Source: Pseudoxanthomonas dokdonensis (GTDB lineage: Bacteria; Pseudomonadota; Gammaproteobacteria; Xanthomonadales; Xanthomonadaceae). From it: DNA of 64,000 nt. The notes under the pieces were generated by a model. It did not search any database and was not told the origin of the DNA. It saw nothing but the letters and a program-made list of their open reading frames with translations. The number at the start of each line of letters is the position of its first letter. The first letter of the stretch is position 1. A program made the position numbers and the translations under genes. The stretch is taken from assembly GCF_001431405.1 (NCBI RefSeq), contig NZ_LDJL01000004.1, positions 124,001 to 188,000 of the forward strand, read 5' to 3'. Positions 1,890 to 37,036 of the stretch are shown in pieces.

Positions 1890-3008
1890 ATGACTCCTCT
1901 GTTGCAAAGCACGCTGACCCATCTGCAGGCGCTGGTGTCGTTCGATACCCGCAACCCGCCACGCGCCATCACCACCGGTGGCATCTTTGACTACATCCGC
2001 CAGCAACTGCCGGATTTCAGCATCGATGTCGTCGATTACGGTGCCGGTGCGGTGTCGTTGTTCGCGGTGCGCGGTCAACCAAGGCAACTGTTCAACGTCC
2101 ATCTGGACACGGTGCCGTCGTCACCGGCCTGGAGCCAGGACCCGCATACGCTGACCGTCACCGACGACCGCGCCATCGGCCTGGGCGCGTGCGACATCAA
2201 GGGCGCGGCCGCGGCCCTGATCGCGGCCGCGCAGTCCACCCAGGGACCGGCGGCGTTTCTTTTCAGCAGTGACGAAGAGGCCAATGACCCGCGCTGCATC
2301 GCCGGCTTCCTGGCCAGCGATCACGGTTTCAGCGAAGCGATTATCGCCGAGCCCACCAATGGCGAGGCGGTGCTGGCGCATCGCGGCATCAGCGCGGTGC
2401 GGATGGCCTTCACCGGCACCGCCGGTCATGCGTCGGCGGAGAACGCGTTGTCGCTGAGCGCCCTGCACAACGCCATGCGCTGGGGCACGACCACCCTGGA
2501 TTACGTGCAATCGCAGCATCACCTGCGTTTCGGCGGGCTGACCGGATTGCGCTTCAACATCGGCAAGGTCGAAGGTGGCATCAAGGCCAACATGATTGCG
2601 CCCAGCGCCGAAGTGCGTTTCGGTTTCCGGCCATTGCCGTCGCAGGACATGGATGCATTGCATGCCCGGCTCCGCGAATTCGCGGTCTCCGGTGCCGGCG
2701 CCAATCCGCAGGCGCTGGCCGAGTACGAGGAGACCTTCCGCGGCCCGTCACTGCCATCCGGTGACGTGGCACGGGCCGAGGAACGGCGCCTGGCCGCGCG
2801 TGACCTGGCTGATGAACTGGGTCTGCCGATCGGCAACGCGGTGGACTTCTGGACCGAGGCCTCGCTGTTTTCCGCCGCTGGCCTGACCGCGCTGGTGTAT
2901 GGCCCGGGCGACATCGCCCAGGCCCACACCGCCGACGAATTCGTCACCCTCGAACAACTCCACGGCTATGCCGAGCGCGTCCAGCGCATCCTCGGCGGCC
3001 AGCCATGA
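1890..3008 (+). CDS. argE: M20-family deacetylase, probable N-acetylcitrulline deacetylase
   Basis: This 372-residue M20 metallopeptidase-fold enzyme removes the acetyl group from an N-acetylated arginine precursor. Metal ligands are recognisable: H71 in VHLDTVP, D102 in GACDIKGA, the catalytic/bridging pair E129-E130 in SSDEEAND, and the C-terminal His in IAQAHTADEF. The dimerisation lid lies roughly at 170-280. Xanthomonads are known to carbamoylate acetylornithine and then deacetylate acetylcitrulline, and their enzyme sits in this same gene order, so acetylcitrulline is the likely substrate. Sequence alone does not separate acetylcitrulline from acetylornithine. The matching acetylornithine carbamoyltransferase gene is not in this window and would be expected just upstream. 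Confidence 0.92.
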   Translation: MTPLLQSTLTHLQALVSFDTRNPPRAITTGGIFDYIRQQLPDFSIDVVDYGAGAVSLFAVRGQPRQLFNVHLDTVPSSPAWSQDPHTLTVTDDRAIGLGACDIKGAAAALIAAAQSTQGPAAFLFSSDEEANDPRCIAGFLASDHGFSEAIIAEPTNGEAVLAHRGISAVRMAFTGTAGHASAENALSLSALHNAMRWGTTTLDYVQSQHHLRFGGLTGLRFNIGKVEGGIKANMIAPSAEVRFGFRPLPSQDMDALHARLREFAVSGAGANPQALAEYEETFRGPSLPSGDVARAEERRLAARDLADELGLPIGNAVDFWTEASLFSAAGLTALVYGPGDIAQAHTADEFVTLEQLHGYAERVQRILGGQP

Positions 3009-3074
3009 ACTGCTGACCGCCGCAACGCCACCACTGCCCACCGGCAACATCCGCCACGCATCGCCGAGTATTCA

Positions 3075-4391
3075 ATGTCCGCCCACAAACAAACCCGCCA
3101 GACCATCGTGCGCCTGCTGTCCAGCATGGCCAGCCAGAAAGAAATCAGCCAGTACCTCAAGCGCTTCTCGCAGCTCGATGCCAAGCGCTTTGCCGTGGTC
3201 AAGGTTGGTGGCGCGGTGCTGCGTGACGACTTGGATGCATTGACCTCGTCGCTGACCTTCCTGCAGGAAGTCGGGCTGACCCCGATCGTCATCCACGGCG
3301 CCGGCCCGCAGCTGGACGAGCAGATGAATGCCGCCGGCATCGAGAAGCAGACCGTCAACGGCCTGCGGGTGACCACGCCGGAAGTGCTGGCGATTGTGCG
3401 CAGGGTGTTCCTGCAACAGAACCTGGCGCTGGTCGAAGCCCTGCAGCAGGTCGGCGCGCGCGCCACCTCGATCGTCTCCGGGGTATTCGAATCGGATTAT
3501 CTCGATCAATCGACCTATGGCCTGGTTGGTGAGGTCAAGCAGGTCAACCTGGCGCCGATTGAAGCCAGCCTGCATGCCGGCTCGATACCGGTCATCGCCA
3601 GCATGGGTGAAACCATCGGCGGACAGATCCTCAACATCAATGCCGACTTCGCCGCCAATGAGCTGGTGCAGATCCTGCAGCCATACAAGATCATCTTCCT
3701 CACCGGCACCGGCGGCCTGCTCGATGCCGACGACAAGGTCATCGATTCGATCAACCTGTCGACCGAGTATGACGATCTGATGGCGCAGCCGTGGATCAAC
3801 GGCGGCATGCGGGTCAAGCTGGAGCAGATCCGCAACCTGCTGGAGCATCTGCCGCTGACTTCATCGGTGTCGATCACCAAGCCGGCCGAACTGGCCAAGG
3901 AACTGTTCACCCACAAGGGATCGGGCACGCTGGTACGCAAGGGCGAACGGGTGCTGCGTTTCGACAGCTGGGAAGGCGTCGATACCCAGCGCCTGCGCGA
4001 ACTGATCGAGTCCAGCTTCGGCCGTCGCCTGCTACCGGATTATTTCCAGCGCACCCGGCCACATCGCATCTACGTCAGCGAGAATTACCGCACTGCACTG
4101 GTGTTGACCCGGGAAGAGGGATTCACCTACCTGGACAAGTTCGCGGTCCTCGACGATGCCCAGGGCGAAGGCCTGGGGCGTGCGGTCTGGCATGTGATGC
4201 GCGAAGAGAACCCGTCGCTGTTCTGGCGCTCGCGCAACAACAACCAGGTCAACATTTTCTACTACGCCGAATCCGATGGCTGCTACAAGCAGGAACACTG
4301 GAAGGTGTTCTGGTACGGCATCTCCGATTTCGCCGACATCGAACGCTGCGTGCAACACTGCAGGACCCGCCAGCCCACGCTCACGGATTGA
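3075..4391 (+). CDS. argB: bifunctional acetylglutamate kinase / N-acetylglutamate synthase
   Basis: This 438-residue protein has an amino-acid kinase domain (residues about 35-285, with KVGGAVLRD at 43-51 and the [11 protein letters not shown] nucleotide-site loop) followed by a vertebrate-type N-acetyltransferase domain (about 290-438, with [17 protein letters not shown]). The fusion couples synthesis of acetylglutamate with its phosphorylation, the first two arginine steps. A stand-alone kinase is only about 300 residues, so the extra ~150 residues are diagnostic of the xanthomonad/Maricaulis-type NAGS-K. The ATG chosen gives the basic, helical N-terminal extension typical of this class. 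It follows argE by 66 bases and precedes a second GNAT gene by 3 bases. Confidence 0.95.
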
Positions 4392-10386: not shown

Positions 10387-10410
10387 CTTTTTGTAACTTC
10401 TTGATTTTAC

Positions 10411-12000: not shown

Positions 12001-12120
12001 CGCCGCCACTTTGTCTCCAGCACCAGCCAGACCCATCGCATGCCGCAGGCATGTGATCGGATGTACTCACCAGGAAGCAGGGCGCCGCCGCGTTGCTGCC
12101 GCAAGCAAAGGATTACCAAG

Positions 12121-14013
12121 ATGAAACCGATTCAACTGGATGGACGTTCGCTGACCCGCGACAAGCTGGTCGAAATCGCCTATGGCGCGTCCATCGAACT
12201 GGACGCCAATGCGCTGAAGGCAGTGGCCCGCGCCGCCGACTTCCTGGCCGAACAGGTGCGTCGCGAGGAGCCGATTTATGGCGTTTCCACCGGCTTTGGC
12301 AGCAATGCCGACAAGCTGCTGGGCGCGCGCCCGCTGCGCGACGACCTGCCGGGTGCGACCCGCTCCAATCACTCGCTGCATGAAGAACTGCAGTACAACC
12401 TGATCGTCACCCATGCGGTCTGCGTCGGCGAGCCGATGGCACCGGAAGTGGTACGGGCGATGCTCGGCATCCGCATCAACACCCTGCTCAAGGGCCATTC
12501 CGGAATCCGCGTGCAGACCCTGCAGGCGCTGGCCGACATGCTCAACAGCGGCATCGTACCGGTGGTGCCGGAACTGGGTTCGGTCGGTGCCTCCGGCGAT
12601 CTGGCGCCACTGTCGCACCTGGCCATCGTATTGCTGGGCAAGGGCGAAGCTTTCTACCAAGGCGAGCGGATGAGCGGTGCACAGGCGCTGCAACGTGCTG
12701 GCCTGCAACCGGTAACGCTGTCCTACAAGGAAGGCCTGGCGCTGAACAACGGCACCGCGCAGATGCTGGCGATGGGGGTGCTGGCGATCTACCGGATGGA
12801 AAAACTGCTGGACACCGCCGACCTTGCCGCGGCGATGACGATCGATGCATTTGCCGGTCGCCTGGGTGCCTTCGCCGAACAGGTGCATGCGTTGCGCCCA
12901 CATCCGGGCCAGGTCCAGGTGGCGGCACAGCTGCGTGATCTGCTGTCCGGCTCGACCCTGGCCGACATCGCCTATCACCTGGTACCGCGCTTCCGGCCGT
13001 GGCTGCCGAGCAGCTGGCAGACCGCCGAAGCCCAGCAGCTGCGCTTCGACATCGGCTGGGACTGGGTACCCAGCGATCAGCGCCACGGCCGTGAGAAGTT
13101 CTACCAGCGTTTCCGTCCGTTCCGTGGCGGCAAGAAGCACCAGCCGCAGGACAGCTACTCGCTGCGTTGCATCCCGCAGGTACACGGCGCCGTGCGTGAT
13201 GCGCTGGAACAGGCCAAGCGGGTGATGGAAGTCGAGTTGAATGCGGTCACCGACAACCCGCTGATCTTTCCCGACGACACCGACGCCAATCATGTTGAAG
13301 AGCAGGTGATTTCGGCCGGCCATTTCCACGGTATGCCGTTGGCGCTGGCGATGAGCTACCTGAAGGCTGCGCTGCCGACCCTGGCCTCGATTTCCGAACG
13401 TCGCCTCAACAAGCTGGTCGACCCGGCGACCAATGACGGCTTGCCGGCGTTTCTGATTGGCAACGAGGACGGTACCGAATCCGGTCATATGATCGTGCAG
13501 TACACCGCTGCGGCGATCGTCAATGATCTGGCCAGCCGCGCCCACCCGACCTCGGTGTACTCGGTGCCGACCAGTGCCAACGCCGAGGATCATGTATCGA
13601 TGGGGGCCAACGAAGCACGCCATGTGCTGGCCATGCTCAGCGACGTGTCCAAGGTCATCGCGCTGGAGATCTATACCGCCGCGCAGGCCCTGGATCTGCG
13701 CCGCGACATGATCAACGCCGCCCGTCAGCTGGCCCGTGAGGCGGATGCCGAAACCCTGGCCGGCAAGATCGCCGGTGGGCCAATGCCGGGCGCACCCGGC
13801 CGCGAAGCGTTCATCGCCGAAGTCGAAGCATTGCGCGCCGAGCTGGCCGCCAGCGAAGAGTTCCATCCCGGTACCGCCGTAGCCGCGGCCCATCGCGTCG
13901 TGCGTGAACGGATTCCGTTCCTCGAACGCGACCGCGCCCTCGATGGCGAAGTCGCCACCGCAATCCAGCTGATTGCCTCCGGCGATCTGCTGCGCGCCGT
14001 CCACCTGCGCTGA
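12121..14013 (+). CDS. histidine/aromatic amino acid ammonia-lyase family protein, enlarged
   Basis: This 630-residue protein belongs to the MIO-dependent lyase family, which removes ammonia from histidine, phenylalanine or tyrosine. The triad that forms the MIO cofactor is A157-S158-G159 in GSVGASGDLAP. The catalytic Tyr region YGVSTGFG is at 53-60, H98 occupies the selectivity position, NNGT is at 209-212, and SANAEDHVSM at 486-494 keeps the Glu-Asp-His seen in histidine ammonia-lyases. It is about 120 residues longer than a usual HutH. Some 60 extra residues rich in Trp, Arg and Phe (about 280-340) sit before QDSYSLRC, and the C-terminus is also extended. No hutU, hutI or hutG is nearby. 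Histidine is a plausible substrate but not proven; an aromatic substrate or a mutase activity is possible. Confidence 0.85.
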   Translation: MKPIQLDGRSLTRDKLVEIAYGASIELDANALKAVARAADFLAEQVRREEPIYGVSTGFGSNADKLLGARPLRDDLPGATRSNHSLHEELQYNLIVTHAVCVGEPMAPEVVRAMLGIRINTLLKGHSGIRVQTLQALADMLNSGIVPVVPELGSVGASGDLAPLSHLAIVLLGKGEAFYQGERMSGAQALQRAGLQPVTLSYKEGLALNNGTAQMLAMGVLAIYRMEKLLDTADLAAAMTIDAFAGRLGAFAEQVHALRPHPGQVQVAAQLRDLLSGSTLADIAYHLVPRFRPWLPSSWQTAEAQQLRFDIGWDWVPSDQRHGREKFYQRFRPFRGGKKHQPQDSYSLRCIPQVHGAVRDALEQAKRVMEVELNAVTDNPLIFPDDTDANHVEEQVISAGHFHGMPLALAMSYLKAALPTLASISERRLNKLVDPATNDGLPAFLIGNEDGTESGHMIVQYTAAAIVNDLASRAHPTSVYSVPTSANAEDHVSMGANEARHVLAMLSDVSKVIALEIYTAAQALDLRRDMINAARQLAREADAETLAGKIAGGPMPGAPGREAFIAEVEALRAELAASEEFHPGTAVAAAHRVVRERIPFLERDRALDGEVATAIQLIASGDLLRAVHLR

Positions 14014-14014
14014 G

Positions 14015-14803
14015 GTAGAGCGGAGCTCGCTCCGCTGCACCCTCCGAAGCTCGGTGTCCCGGCAATCGCAGCCGAGCAAGCTCGGCTCTACGGTCCAGTC
14101 GTGCATGCACCCTGCGTAGAGCGGAGCTCGCTCCGCTGCCTCCCTCCGAAGCCCGATATCCCGGTAAAAGCAGCCGAGCAAGCTCGGCTCTACGGTCCAG
14201 TCGTGCATGCACCCCGTGTAGAGCCGAGCTTGCTCCGCTGCCTCCCTCCGAAGCCCGATATCCCGGTAAAAGCAGCCGAGCAAGCTCGGCTCTACGGTCC
14301 AGTCGTGTATGCGCCCTGCGTAGAGCGGAGCTCGCTCCGCTGCACCCTCCGAGGCTCGATATCCCGGTAAAAGCAGCCGAGCAAGCTCGGCTCTACGGTC
14401 CGGTCGTGTATGCAGCCCGTGTAGAGCGGAGCTTGCTCCGCTGCACCGCTACGAGCCTTAATCTCCCGGTAAAAGCAGCCGAGCAAGCTCGGCTCTGCGG
14501 TCCGGTCGTGCATGCACCCCGTGTAGAGCGGAGCTTGCTCCGCTGCCTCCCTCCGAAGCCCGATATCCCGGTAAAAGCAGCCGAGCAAGCTCGGCTCTAC
14601 GGTCCAGTCGTGTATGCGCCCTGCGTAGAGCGGAGCTCGCTCCGCTGCACCCTCCGAGGCTCGATATCCCGTTAAAAACAGCCGAGCAAGCCCGGCTCTA
14701 CGGTCCAGTCGTGCATGCAGCCCGTGTAGAGCGGAGCTTGCTCCGCTGCATCCCTCCGAAGCTCGATATCCCGGTAAAAGCCGCCGAGCAAGCCCGGCTC
14801 TAC
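14015..14803. repeat. tandem array of eight BIME-like REP pairs (GTAG type)
   Basis: Eight units begin with GTAGAG at 14015, 14116, 14218, 14320, 14421, 14523, 14625 and 14726, a period of 101-102 bases. Each unit holds one REP palindrome (GTAGAGCGGAGC facing GCTCCGCTGC), a spacer of about 40 bases containing CTCCGAAGC-type sequence and CCGGTAAAAGC, then an inverted second REP whose stem is GCCGAGC/GCTCGGC and which ends in CTAC, then a linker of about 20 bases (CGGTCCAGTCGTGCATGC). The GTAG-headed palindrome matches the SMAG/GTAG class of REP elements known in Stenotrophomonas. The array starts one base after the lyase stop codon. Frames running through it are not genes. Confidence 0.95.
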
Positions 14804-14900
14804 GCCTACGCAATCAGTATCGCCAGCGGTAGCGGACGGAAAAATGAACAGTTCGGCCCAGAACCGCAGCCATGGTTGCCAGCGTTGCACCGTTGCGCTA

Positions 14901-14922
14901 ATGTACTAACGCGTTAATACAT
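14901..14922. promoter_or_regulatory. 22-bp operator palindrome ahead of hisR and the his operon
   Basis: The left half ATGTACTAACG and the reverse complement of the right half, ATGTATTAACG, match at 10 of 11 positions. It ends 10 bases before the hisR ATG and overlaps the probable -10 region (TAATAC at 14915-14920), with TTGCGC at 14893-14898 as a candidate -35. The half-site TGTACTA resembles the half-site of the enterobacterial TrpR operator, which suits a TrpR-family regulator controlling itself and the his genes. Confidence 0.8.
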
Positions 14923-14932
14923 AAGCATAGCC

Positions 14933-15262
14933 ATGAAACGTCGTTCCATCGTCGAAAAAGCATCGGAATTCCCCGCCCTTGATGCACTTGCCGCGGCCCT
15001 GGCAGCGCTGCCCAGGGCCGACGATGTGCGCGCATTCCTCGAGGATCTGTGCACGCCGGCCGAGCTGGAGGCGATGTCGGACCGCTGGCGGGTAGTACCG
15101 TTGCTGCTGAAGGGCGTGCCGTATCGCGAAATCCATGAACTTACCCAGGTCAGCGTGACCACCATCGGCCGCGTCGCCCGCACCCTGGAACGCGGTGCCG
15201 GCGGTTACGCCATTGCCGCGCGCAAGGCCAGCCGCGCCTCCGCCTCCAACCGGGCTTCCTGA
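14933..15262 (+). CDS. hisR: TrpR/YerC-family transcriptional regulator, probable histidine repressor
   Basis: This 109-residue protein has the all-helical TrpR/YerC fold. The region [17 protein letters not shown] (about 40-56) and the helix-turn-helix [20 protein letters not shown] (about 64-83) are typical. It lies immediately in front of hisG, one base apart, and just after a 22-bp palindrome. Predicted regulons of Xanthomonadales include a TrpR-family HisR acting on histidine genes, and the symbol is used in that sense. No Shine-Dalgarno sequence is visible before the ATG, and the presumed transcription start is only a few bases upstream, so a leaderless or nearly leaderless mRNA is likely. 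The corepressor is presumably histidine, by inference. Confidence 0.88.
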
Positions 15263-15263
15263 C

Positions 15264-16178
15264 ATGACCCCTTTGAGCAACGGCACCTCGCGTGACCGTC
15301 TACGCATCGCCATCCAGAAAAGCGGCAGGCTGGCGGAACCGGCACGCGCCTTGTTGTCGGCCTGTGGCCTGAGCTGGCGCGAAAGCCGCGACAAGCTGTT
15401 CTGCTACGGCGAATCGCTGCCGGTTGATCTGTTGCTGGTCCGCGACGACGACATTCCGGGCTTGATTGCCGATGGCGTCTGCGACTTCGGCGTGGTGGGA
15501 CGCAACGAGCTCAACGAACAGGCCGGCGCCCGCCAGAGCATCGGTCTGCCGGCGGCCTATCAGGAGCTGCGCGCACTCGGCTTCGGTGGTTGCCGACTGA
15601 TGCTGGCGGTGCCGGAGGCCTGGCAATGGAGTGGTCCCGAGCAGCTGCAGGGCACCCGCATTGCCACCAGCTACCCGGCGATCCTGGCCCAGTGGTTGCA
15701 GGAGCAGGGCGTGCAGGCGAGTGTGGTCGAATTGTCCGGCTCGGTGGAAATCGCCCCCAAGCTGGGGACCGCGGATCTGATCTGCGATCTGGTCTCCAGC
15801 GGCGCCACCCTGGCTGCCAATCAGCTCAAGCCGGTGCAGACCTTGCTGGAAAGCGAAGCGGTGCTGGCCGGGCCGGTGCGCCGCTTCGAGGATCAGCGTG
15901 CGCAACTGGCGGCGATGCTGTTGCGACGGATGGATGGCGTGCTCAAGCTGAAGGACAGCAAGCTGCTGATGTTCCGCGCCGAACGCGCCACCGTCGCTGA
16001 ACTGACTCGATTGCTACCTGATGCCGAACCATTGACCACGCTAGCAGGCAGCGAAGAAGGTCCGCTGTCGTTGCAGACCATGTGTCACGGCGCGGTCACT
16101 TGGCAGCGGCTGGAAGAGCTGGAGCGCGCTGGCGCCCAGGGCCTGATGGTGTTGTCGGTCGAGAGGTCGCTGGCATGA
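15264..16178 (+). CDS. hisG: ATP phosphoribosyltransferase, long form
   Basis: This 304-residue enzyme condenses ATP with PRPP, the first and normally feedback-inhibited step of histidine synthesis. [12 protein letters not shown] begins the catalytic domain, [13 protein letters not shown] near residue 172 is the PRPP-binding signature, and residues from about 220 onward form the regulatory HisG-C domain that distinguishes the long, hexameric form from the HisZ-dependent short form. It starts one base after hisR and its stop overlaps the hisD ATG by 4 bases. Confidence 0.96.
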
Positions 16179-31095: not shown

Positions 31096-31128
31096 GTAGA
31101 GCGGAGCTTGCTCCGCTGCTCTTTCTAC
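31096..31128. repeat. single GTAG-type REP palindrome
   Basis: GTAGAGCGGAGCTTGCTCCG then CTG and a short tail ending in CTAC. The stem AGCGGAGC/GCTCCGCT is identical to that of the large array at 14015-14803. It lies seven bases before the serA-like remnant, in the gap between the Nudix and grpB genes. Confidence 0.9.
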
Positions 31129-35072: not shown

Positions 35073-36898
35073 TCCCGCGTCGGCGCCTGCGCTGGGCGCT
35101 GCTGGCGTGGCTGCTGCTGGCGTCGCCGGCCTGGGCACGAGTGTCATTGCAGCTGCAGTCCGAAGGGCTGTCGGCAGCCGAGATCGGCGCCAGCACGGCG
35201 ATGTTCGAACAAGCCCTGCAGCGACTGCCGCCTTCCTGGCGCGACGGCAGCGAGCAGGTCATCCCGGTGCAATGGCGCGACGATCTTCCGGCGAAGGTAC
35301 ACGGCCGGGCCAAATCACGGGCGATCTGGTTGAACCGGCAGTTGTTGCTGGACTGGATGGCGGCCGGCGCGACCAAACCCGACACCGGCAGCGAAGTCCT
35401 GGCTGCCCGCCAGGCCGTGCTGGCCGCGTTGATCCATGAGCTGGCGCATTTCCATGATCGGTCCGCGCAAGGACAGCTGTCGCGCAATCCACGACTGCTG
35501 GACCTGGCCGGCTGGCAACTGGATCTGGCGCGACCGCGCCGGCGCGTGGCCGGCAATGCCTTCAGTGACCGCAGCCCGGACCGCTACGAGCTGACCAGCG
35601 CCAGTGAGTATGTGGCGGTGAACCTGGAATATTTCCTGCTCGATCCGCAATACGCCTGTCGCCGGCCAGCGCTGTATCGGTTGTTTGCCGAGCATTTCGC
35701 CTGGTCGCCGCCGGCCAGCGCGTGCGCGCCGGACCAGGTGTTCGTGCAGTCGCTGGTCGATGATGCGGTGCGGGCTTTGCCGCACCTGGAGCCGGACCGT
35801 GTCTACGCGGTCGACTATCTGTTGGCCGAGGGCAACCAGCAGGCGATGAGTCGCTGGGGCCACGCCATGTTGCGGCTGGTGATCTGCAAGCCGGGACGCA
35901 GGCCGGGGCCGGATTGCCGGCTGGACCTGCAGTATCACCAGGTACTGTCGTTCCGTGCCTTCGTCGACGACGTGCAGGTATCCAGCTGGCGCGGACTGAC
36001 CGGTTCGTATCCGTCACGGATGTTCGTGCTGCCGCTGTCGCAGGTCATTGACGAGTACAACAAGGTCGAGCTGCGTGGCCTGCAATCGATTCCACTGCGA
36101 CTGTCGCCGGCGGAGATAACGCAGCTGCTCGAGCGTGCCGCACAGCTGCACTGGAGCTATGACGGCCGTTATTACTTCATCAGCAACAACTGCGCGGTGG
36201 AAGTATTCAAGCTGCTGCACGATGGCGTGCCGCGGCTGGCCGGCGAGGGTTTGGACAGCATCACTCCGCGCGGTCTGCTGCGCAAACTGCAGCGGCGCGG
36301 TGTCGCCGATGCCAGCGTGCTGCAACCGCGTGACCAGGCCGAACGGATGGGCTATTACTTCCCGTCGGCGGATCAGCATTACCAGCAACTGCTGGATGTG
36401 GTGCGTGCGGGCCAGCCAATCGCGCAGGCACGGGTACGGGACTGGTTGCGGGCACCGGCGACGGAGCGCGCGCGGGCCATCGAACACGCGGATCTGAAAG
36501 CCAGCGCGGCGTTACTGGTGCTGGAAAACGCCGCCCTGCGGCAACAGGAAGTGTTGGCGCGGGACGAACTGAAACACCGCTTGCTGCGGCCACCGGCCAT
36601 GGGCGAGCTGAGCGGGCAATCGGAACAGACGATGCTGGCCGATTATCTGCGCGCCAGCGAACGGCTCAGTCGCCCGGCCTTGTTGATTGAGGGTGGTTAC
36701 GGGCTGCCGCAGGCAGCGGAGCGCGAGCGCCTGCAACGGGCGGCAACCGATCAGATGCAGGCACTGCAGGCCGCCCGTTCACGCCTGCATGACTCCGCAA
36801 AGGAATGGTTGGACAGCGAGCTTGCCCGGCAGATGCACGGCACCCGCGACAATCTGCAGCGCCTGGGAGCGCAAGTGCGGGCGTTCGCATCGCCGTAG
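35069..36898 (+). CDS. exported DUF4105 protein with HExxH motif
   Basis: This 609-residue protein begins with an arginine-rich signal peptide (RRRLRWALLAWLLLASPAWA). A possible zinc-protease motif ALIHELAHFHD lies near residue 127. The DUF4105 core spans about 245-450 (MSRWGHAMLRLVICK, YYFISNNCAVEVFKLL with a conserved N-N-C-A), and a long helical region follows. Start: no ATG is available before the signal peptide; the TTG at 35069 overlaps the DUF2388 stop and gives an intact signal peptide. Function is unknown; an envelope protease or scaffold is a guess. Its TAG stop codon lies inside a GTAG REP element (36895 onward), so the last codons abut the repeat. Confidence 0.8.
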   Translation: MIPRRRLRWALLAWLLLASPAWARVSLQLQSEGLSAAEIGASTAMFEQALQRLPPSWRDGSEQVIPVQWRDDLPAKVHGRAKSRAIWLNRQLLLDWMAAGATKPDTGSEVLAARQAVLAALIHELAHFHDRSAQGQLSRNPRLLDLAGWQLDLARPRRRVAGNAFSDRSPDRYELTSASEYVAVNLEYFLLDPQYACRRPALYRLFAEHFAWSPPASACAPDQVFVQSLVDDAVRALPHLEPDRVYAVDYLLAEGNQQAMSRWGHAMLRLVICKPGRRPGPDCRLDLQYHQVLSFRAFVDDVQVSSWRGLTGSYPSRMFVLPLSQVIDEYNKVELRGLQSIPLRLSPAEITQLLERAAQLHWSYDGRYYFISNNCAVEVFKLLHDGVPRLAGEGLDSITPRGLLRKLQRRGVADASVLQPRDQAERMGYYFPSADQHYQQLLDVVRAGQPIAQARVRDWLRAPATERARAIEHADLKASAALLVLENAALRQQEVLARDELKHRLLRPPAMGELSGQSEQTMLADYLRASERLSRPALLIEGGYGLPQAAERERLQRAATDQMQALQAARSRLHDSAKEWLDSELARQMHGTRDNLQRLGAQVRAFASP

Positions 36899-37000
36899 AG
36901 CGGAGCGTGCTCCGCTGCGTTCTGCTCGCTGGATTTTTCAGCGGAGCAAGCTCCGCTCTACGGTGTGGTGGGTTTTTCAGCGGAGCAAGCTCCGCTCTAC
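36895..37000. repeat. cluster of three GTAG-type REP palindromes
   Basis: The first palindrome (36895-36918) starts GTAGAGCGGAGCGTGCTCCG and provides the stop codon of the gene before it. Two inverted copies follow at 36939-36961 and 36978-37000, each reading CAGCGGAGCAAGCTCCGCTC and ending in TAC, in a direct repeat of 39 bases that includes GGTTTTTCA-like sequence. They belong to the same family as the array at 14015-14803. The cluster lies between convergent genes, where such hairpins may also act as terminator. Confidence 0.93.
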
Positions 37001-37036
37001 GCGGGGGCATATCGGGTGGCGAACAGTCCGCAGGCC

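Follow-up and report, generated by a model that had tools for sequence, protein, structure and literature searches.

Examining the 64,000-nucleotide window (the whole stretch of Pseudoxanthomonas dokdonensis DNA that was analysed), we find that positions 14015 to 14803 hold eight head-to-tail units of 101-102 bp, the last of them without its linker, which together form a tandem array of heterodimeric REPINs directly behind a lyase gene. Most probably, a RAYT-associated heterodimeric REPIN landed behind the lyase and was then duplicated locally into a BIME-like tandem array, mainly as a by-product of repeat proliferation. The array is explainable without a dedicated function at the locus, and we regard it as a clean example of a locally expanded REPIN.

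Each unit consists of a REP on the plus strand (R1, a GTAG head with a AGCGGAGC stem of the GCGGAGC type), an inner spacer of ~32 bp, a REP on the minus strand (R2, with a AGCCGAGC stem of the GCCGAGC type), and a linker of ~24 bp. The lengths of units 1 to 8 are 101, 102, 102, 101, 102, 102, 101, and 78 bp, the last value being that of a unit without linker; because of this missing linker, the array (14015..14803) both starts and ends with a REP, and no linker is present at either end. Performing a mismatch-tolerant scan, we detected 16 REPs in strict plus/minus alternation, which bears out the preliminary description of eight paired GTAG REPs with different stems. The plus-strand heads are at 14015, 14116, 14218, 14320, 14421, 14523, 14625, and 14726, and the minus-strand heads are at 14091, 14193, 14295, 14396, 14498, 14600, 14701, and 14803. 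In the nomenclature of PMC3733652, these pairs count as HH dimers, because their GTAG heads face outward, and as heterodimers, because their two stems differ. Tandem Repeats Finder placed the repeat at 14015-14804 (period 102, 7.8 copies, 88% matches, score 1207), and a 305-bp period, corresponding to three units, scored still higher (1361).

All the units read on the plus strand, and four of the 16 REPs are imperfect (R1 of unit 3 and R2 of units 5, 7, and 8). Unit 1 (14015..14115) is composed of a REPIN at 14015-14091 plus the linker, and it is followed by unit 2 (14116..14217). In unit 3 (14218..14319), one R1 arm is changed to the GCCGAGC form, leaving a mismatched stem; unit 4 is at 14320..14420. 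Unit 5 (14421..14522) has the most diverged inner spacer of the array and a GCAG head in its R2. The R2 stems are mismatched in unit 7 (14625..14725) and in unit 8 (14726..14803), which is a REPIN without linker. Aligning the units, we find that unit 6 (14523..14624) differs from unit 3 at 1 position, and that unit 7 is nearest to unit 4, with 5 positions differing. Like a tandem REPIN cluster or BIME-2, the array has several tandem copies of a REP pair plus linker, here eight. Three ORFs (89, 89, and 173 aa) are contained in it fully or almost fully, and plus- and minus-strand ORFs running through the array might be taken to encode a 34-residue repeat protein. The chance of this is negligible, as the reading frame is shifted by the 101-bp units and the REPs are palindromes repeated at many places in the genome.

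We compared the 102-nt unit with the whole genome, scoring 40 of 78 candidates, and obtained 27 matches at E <= 1e-6. Eight of these are the array units themselves (88-99% identity). The other 19, from the same scored candidates, are REP-type matches elsewhere, none of which extends beyond base 83, where most of the linker lies. Between arrays, there were also looser matches of 64-70% identity. Since the matches elsewhere stop short of the linker, the array was most likely duplicated in place, and the 305-bp period together with the near-identical pairs 3/6 and 4/7 fits block duplication of two or three units. We propose that a heterodimeric GTAG REPIN came to sit just behind the lyase stop codon, presumably by RAYT-mediated movement. 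This REPIN and ~24 bp of linker would then have been duplicated in place by recombination or replication slippage, with two- to three-unit blocks probably included, as the unit alignment and the 305-bp period suggest. The array would be mainly a by-product of repeat proliferation. A search for a single-unit ancestor of the array found none; the REPIN behind the P. yeongjuensis lyase was considered and rejected, its spacers being unrelated.

The genome (3.55 Mb) is assembled in 34 contigs, which raises a question of whether the copy number comes from misassembly. Contig C30 ends inside a REP array, contig C3 begins with a REP, and units 3 and 6 differ by one base. We find this explanation very improbable, because the units carry distinct differences, similar arrays are present at many loci, and assemblers tend to collapse repeats rather than expand them. 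The end of C30 and the start of C3 do tell us that these repeats are the site of some of the assembly breaks, so that care is needed with copy numbers taken from draft genomes.

The arms of the REPs vary less than the spacers. Here, variation is seen in 4 of the 40 columns of heads and stems compared with 22 of 58 spacer columns (Fisher p = 0.002), and as its units also follow from the period alone, a bias from choosing units by similarity is not at issue. Pooling nine arrays gave 17 of 340 variable arm columns versus 172 of 566 spacer columns, a comparison that selects units by REP similarity and thereby favors conserved arms. The nine are regular dimer arrays, the C9 array (L171), L182, and the monomer arrays being excluded, and in one of them (C29_43) the columns of an unlabelled REP were counted as spacer. 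The contrast is weaker in the C34 array (9 of 32 stem versus 32 of 72 spacer columns). The lower variation of the arms suggests that they are maintained and do not drift freely. It could be due to selection, to gene conversion with the many other copies, or, for arrays other than this one, to the choice of units.

The host and Pseudoxanthomonas mexicana fall in one GTDB genus, and the host does not belong to Stenotrophomonas. We searched its genome with a REP family pattern that spans the stem variants GCGGAGC, GCCGAGC, and GCGCAGC. This yielded 285 exact matches, a few of which have a mismatched stem as the pattern allows the two arms to differ, and the reversed control yielded 0. These counts, along with the folds of four units (z -4.9 to -6.6), led us to reject a chance origin of the repeats. 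The array has the marks of GTAG REPs, a GTAG head followed by a short palindrome at high, dispersed copy number. At least one family match is present in 29 of the 38 genus genomes, our own included. Elsewhere in the window, a cluster at 36895-37001 contains three REPs of this family (one plus, two minus) with a 39-bp period, and a single REP of the family is at 31096.

Exact REPs of the GCCGAGC type are few, as the genome has 12 of them: this array contains five, the C9 array four, a C32 cluster two, and C30 one. Nine of the 12 are thus found in two arrays. The preliminary description had proposed searching the genome for a RAYT transposase recognizing GTAG palindromes, and a RAYT-type gene with GTAG-REP arrays on both sides was located at G000:C3:472742. 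The gene gave a Y1_Tnp match above the cut-off and has four heterodimers on each side. In a five-sequence RAYT alignment, H64, H66, and Y123 are invariant; we take H64/H66 and Y123 to be the catalytic HxH and Tyr. A second Y1-like gene in the genome has no REPs of the family beside it. The REPs flanking the RAYT are of the GCGCAGC and GCGGAGC types, and the GCCGAGC type of the array is not among them. This counts against our preferred explanation, as do the seemingly maintained arms, the missing single-unit ancestor, and, as described below, the REP-like palindromes behind the lyase in relatives, the pairing between units when the array is folded whole, and the ordinary stability of the lyase end with the first REP alone.

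We inspected RAYT homologues in eight other genomes of the genus, eight of 19 such loci, and in all eight we find GTAG palindromes on both sides. An association between RAYTs and REPs has been published before (PMC2817692), and our finding is in line with it. The flanking stems are of the array's form or variants of it, and they differ between species: GCGGAGC with GCCGAGC in G012, GCGGAGC in G004, GCCGAGC in G041 and G048, TCCGAGC in G003, G042, and G052, and GCGCAGC with a variant in G002. The R2 subtype is rare in our genome but flanks the RAYT of a related species. Family REPs are more numerous in the nine genomes with a close RAYT than in the remaining 29 (one-sided p = 0.02), with a cut for 'close RAYT' that was set after the scores were seen. 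G007 is an exception, with 100 REPs but without a RAYT match at E <= 1e-10, and so are G002, G003, and G052, which have a close RAYT and at most two REPs. In G003 and G052, the REPs next to the RAYT are variants missed by the family pattern.

The array may preserve an older REP pairing. An account that goes further, and that we hold to be unlikely, sees in it the record of a REP generation that has since been replaced. On this account, the GCCGAGC subtype would have nearly disappeared from the genome, with the resident RAYT now flanked by the GCGCAGC and GCGGAGC types, and the older heterodimer would have been kept behind the lyase by tandem amplification and by maintenance of its arms through gene conversion or selection, where its several hairpins would also slow the translation of the lyase and limit read-through.

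The array is one of 18 arrays or clusters examined in this genome, so at least 17 more exist; the survey used exact-REP patterns, and its count is a minimum. Among the dimer arrays seen in the genome, the largest has 13 heterodimer units of ~116 bp (L170, G000:C34:179500-186000, at 2329-3806). This C34 array is 15 nt past an AIR-synthase-like gene. Eight pairs had been described at first as a large array, but they are not exceptional given these 13 units and the S. maltophilia alleles reaching 17 repeats (PMC2613905).

We also searched the genus for a pattern of three REPs in a row. With a period of 94-124, it matched 35 times in our genome, 3 times in G012, 2 times in G007, once in G004, and never in the other 34 of the 38 genus genomes. 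With a period of 63-93, it matched 17 times here, 13 times in G012, 2 times in G011, and in none of the remaining 35. The matches of the period classes (35, 17, and 17) overlap and are not counts of arrays, and two of the three classes were compared across the genus, the 32-62 class having been searched in our genome only. The genome is array-rich among the 38. As G004 has more family REPs (335 versus 285 here) yet fewer array matches, array richness is not set by the number of REPs alone.

The location of the array relative to genes is the usual one for this genome. An ORF 3′ end is within 16 nt in 16 of the 18 arrays examined, and of the 34 array sides that were called, 29 are next to the 3′ end of an ORF (binomial p = 4e-5, with one half as the expectation). 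For this count, from which L181 and L186 were left out, ORFs were filtered by length and third-position GC and the nearest was taken; six of ten tested have a Pfam match and four have none. The filter missed hisR, the true right neighbor of our array, where a 5′ end is faced either way. At seven array sides, the TAG of the GTAG head is itself the stop codon, and four of these seven genes have Pfam support above the cut-off (a thioesterase, a GyrI-like protein, a diphthamide synthase, and the RAYT), the other three having no match. Thus at L173, L176, L185, and L183, the TAG of a REP head ends a Pfam-supported gene, the RAYT itself included. GTAG REPs have been reported to supply TAG stops often and to sit downstream of genes (PMC3733652). 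The position behind the lyase is usual for the genome and not special to the lyase.

The upstream neighbor of the array is a HutH-like lyase gene (12040..14013, plus strand; Pfam Lyase_aromatic, PF00221). Its stop codon at 14011-14013 puts the first REP head, at 14015, one base further on, as had been noted from the start, and the first REP stem begins five bases past the stop. At the other end, an operator-like palindrome (14901..14922) begins 97 bases after the array, agreeing with the earlier estimate of about 100. Next comes the first gene past the array (14933..15262, plus strand), a Trp_repressor family member (PF01371) for which we assume the name hisR. Allowing up to 6 mismatches in 22, we found a similar palindrome ahead of hisR at 71 of 73 loci in relatives compared with 19 of 1460 random segments. 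The lyase gene sits between hisS and hisR, and its product has, by eye, an apparent insertion of ~60 residues before the DSYSLRC stretch.

We examined the lyase 3′ end in relatives, using the best 80 of 417 related stretches, most of them from Lysobacteraceae. In many of them (L003-L082) the gap between lyase and hisR is ~2 kb; in the window, it is occupied by the array alone. Our guess is that the intervening gene in these relatives encodes a minus-strand GGDEF protein. A REP-like palindrome is present within 25 nt past the lyase stop in 10 of the 80 relatives, compared with 11 of 461 other ORF stops (p = 0.0003), where the control stops include many operon-internal or spurious ORFs, most of the 11 control matches come from the same intergenic region as seen from its other-side or next gene, six of the ten relatives share one sequence class (GTRGGAGCGACG) and are not independent, and two of the ten (L015 and L081) may not be true REPs. 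Of 4000 shuffled stretches, 33 had a REP-like palindrome. The relatives' palindromes are 5-19 nt past the stop, and since they represent at least three classes of sequence, REPs have arrived behind the lyase on more than one occasion. Their enrichment might mark a favored or a useful site.

A rival explanation is a selected 3′ device, in which the hairpins would reduce transcription running on from the lyase into hisR-his, shield the lyase mRNA at its end, or tune lyase translation through the hairpin five bases past the stop codon. We folded four of the eight units as RNA and obtained long hairpins with single mismatches (z -4.9 to -6.6), three with energies of ~-44 kcal/mol and the fourth, folded without its first base, with -37.7 kcal/mol. 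The inverse REPs of these HH dimers can therefore form one hairpin, as defines a REPIN. When 13990-14830 was folded whole (z -17.25, 20 shuffles), the units paired with each other and not as eight separate hairpins. The lyase end with the first REP alone was not unusually stable (z -1.19, with 24 of 200 shuffles as good). Scanning the array, we found no terminator-like site on the plus strand and no promoter-like site, and two terminator-like sites on the minus strand, where shuffles average 0.9. In an Rfam scan of 13700-15300, the five matches at E <= 0.1 were all to microRNA families and fell well short of the gathering scores, and we dismissed them as chance hairpins.

BIMEs are reportedly able to attenuate transcription. 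If the array is transcribed, strong hairpins would be expected at the 3′ end of the lyase mRNA, and, by analogy with E. coli REPs, they could slow translation termination, RNA polymerase, or 3′ exonucleases. E. coli REPs less than 16 nt from a stop codon cause ribosome stalling and reduced translation, according to an earlier study cited in PMC12306157. On this analogy, the array could plausibly have a mild influence on how strongly the lyase is expressed or on read-through. A selected device is possible, and we remain doubtful of it. Speaking for it are the start of the array one base past the stop and of the hairpin stem five bases past, the reduced translation reported for E. coli REPs this close to a stop (PMC12306157), the stable folds of four units, arms that are more conserved than spacers, a plus strand without a terminator-like site, and REP-like palindromes of at least three classes 5-19 nt past the lyase stop in 10 of 80 relatives. 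Against this, 16 of 18 arrays hold the same position whatever the gene, so a lyase-specific function is not needed; six of the ten relatives belong to a single class (GTRGGAGCGACG) and cannot be counted as independent cases; taken by itself, the first REP has no unusual stability (z -1.19); and a single REP might do, with no obvious need for eight units.

The array may alternatively act as DNA, in the manner of BIME-2, binding gyrase or IHF and absorbing supercoils between two co-directional transcription units. Its architecture does resemble that of E. coli BIME-2, a reported gyrase binder (PMC2817692), but the exact IHF consensus is missing from the array, and we judge such a role improbable. 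The motif searched was WATCAANNNNTTR, which we take to be the IHF consensus, and its only exact match in the window is at 10394. By the same exact search, the array lacks the IHF site between REPs that marks BIME-1 or RIB elements. The preferred reading, local duplication of a REPIN as a by-product of repeat proliferation, calls for no such activity.

The class of element is known and its setting typical, the eight-unit array is within the known range, and it leaves the picture of REP biology unchanged. Among the matches listed for literature on REPs in Pseudoxanthomonas, none was on the subject by its title, which does not imply that no such work exists. With its many arrays of different unit length and its array-flanked RAYT, the genome would suit a study of how arrays grow and of intact arms versus diverging spacers.

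Comparing the array with known systems, we find a close likeness in the SMAG arrays of S. maltophilia, where GTAG palindromes are repeated in tandem as monomers or dimers with their flanking DNA in intergenic regions (PMC2613905). That 2008 study described units such as 50 and 103 bp and alleles of up to 17 repeats, used for strain typing; the repeat number varied among isolates and did not change in five days' subculture. The 103-bp units of SMAG locus XII are built on a dimer, like the 101-102 bp units here. The stem and the host are different, and in our array the two REPs of a pair differ in stem (PMC2613905). The SMAG consensus stem (GTAGTGCCGGCC...) was not found in the array, whose stems are AGCGGAGC and AGCCGAGC.

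The clusters of P. fluorescens SBW25 are similar in that near-identical REPINs are repeated with flanking sequence; a REPIN cluster is located beside each of three RAYTs, and mixed GI-GIII tandem arrays reach 12 REPs (PMC3116915). The largest REPIN cluster there has four REPINs plus one REP, compared with eight REPINs here and 13 elsewhere in our genome. Like E. coli BIME-2 and atypical BIMEs, our array has alternating REPs in repeated pairs, and in E. coli, too, the RAYT is flanked by BIME-2 (PMC2817692, PMC8266576). It is unlike the E. coli BIMEs in REP sequence, length, and loop, and it has no exact IHF site (PMC2817692, PMC8266576). The GTAG heterodimers or hybrid dimers described in 2013 (PMC3733652) share with it dimers of REPs with different stems, TAG stops, and a location downstream of genes; no Pseudoxanthomonas case was noted in the part of that paper available. 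What our data add to this earlier literature is that the arms are less variable than the spacers, that this genome is array-rich among 38, and that an R2 subtype rare here flanks the RAYT of a related species.
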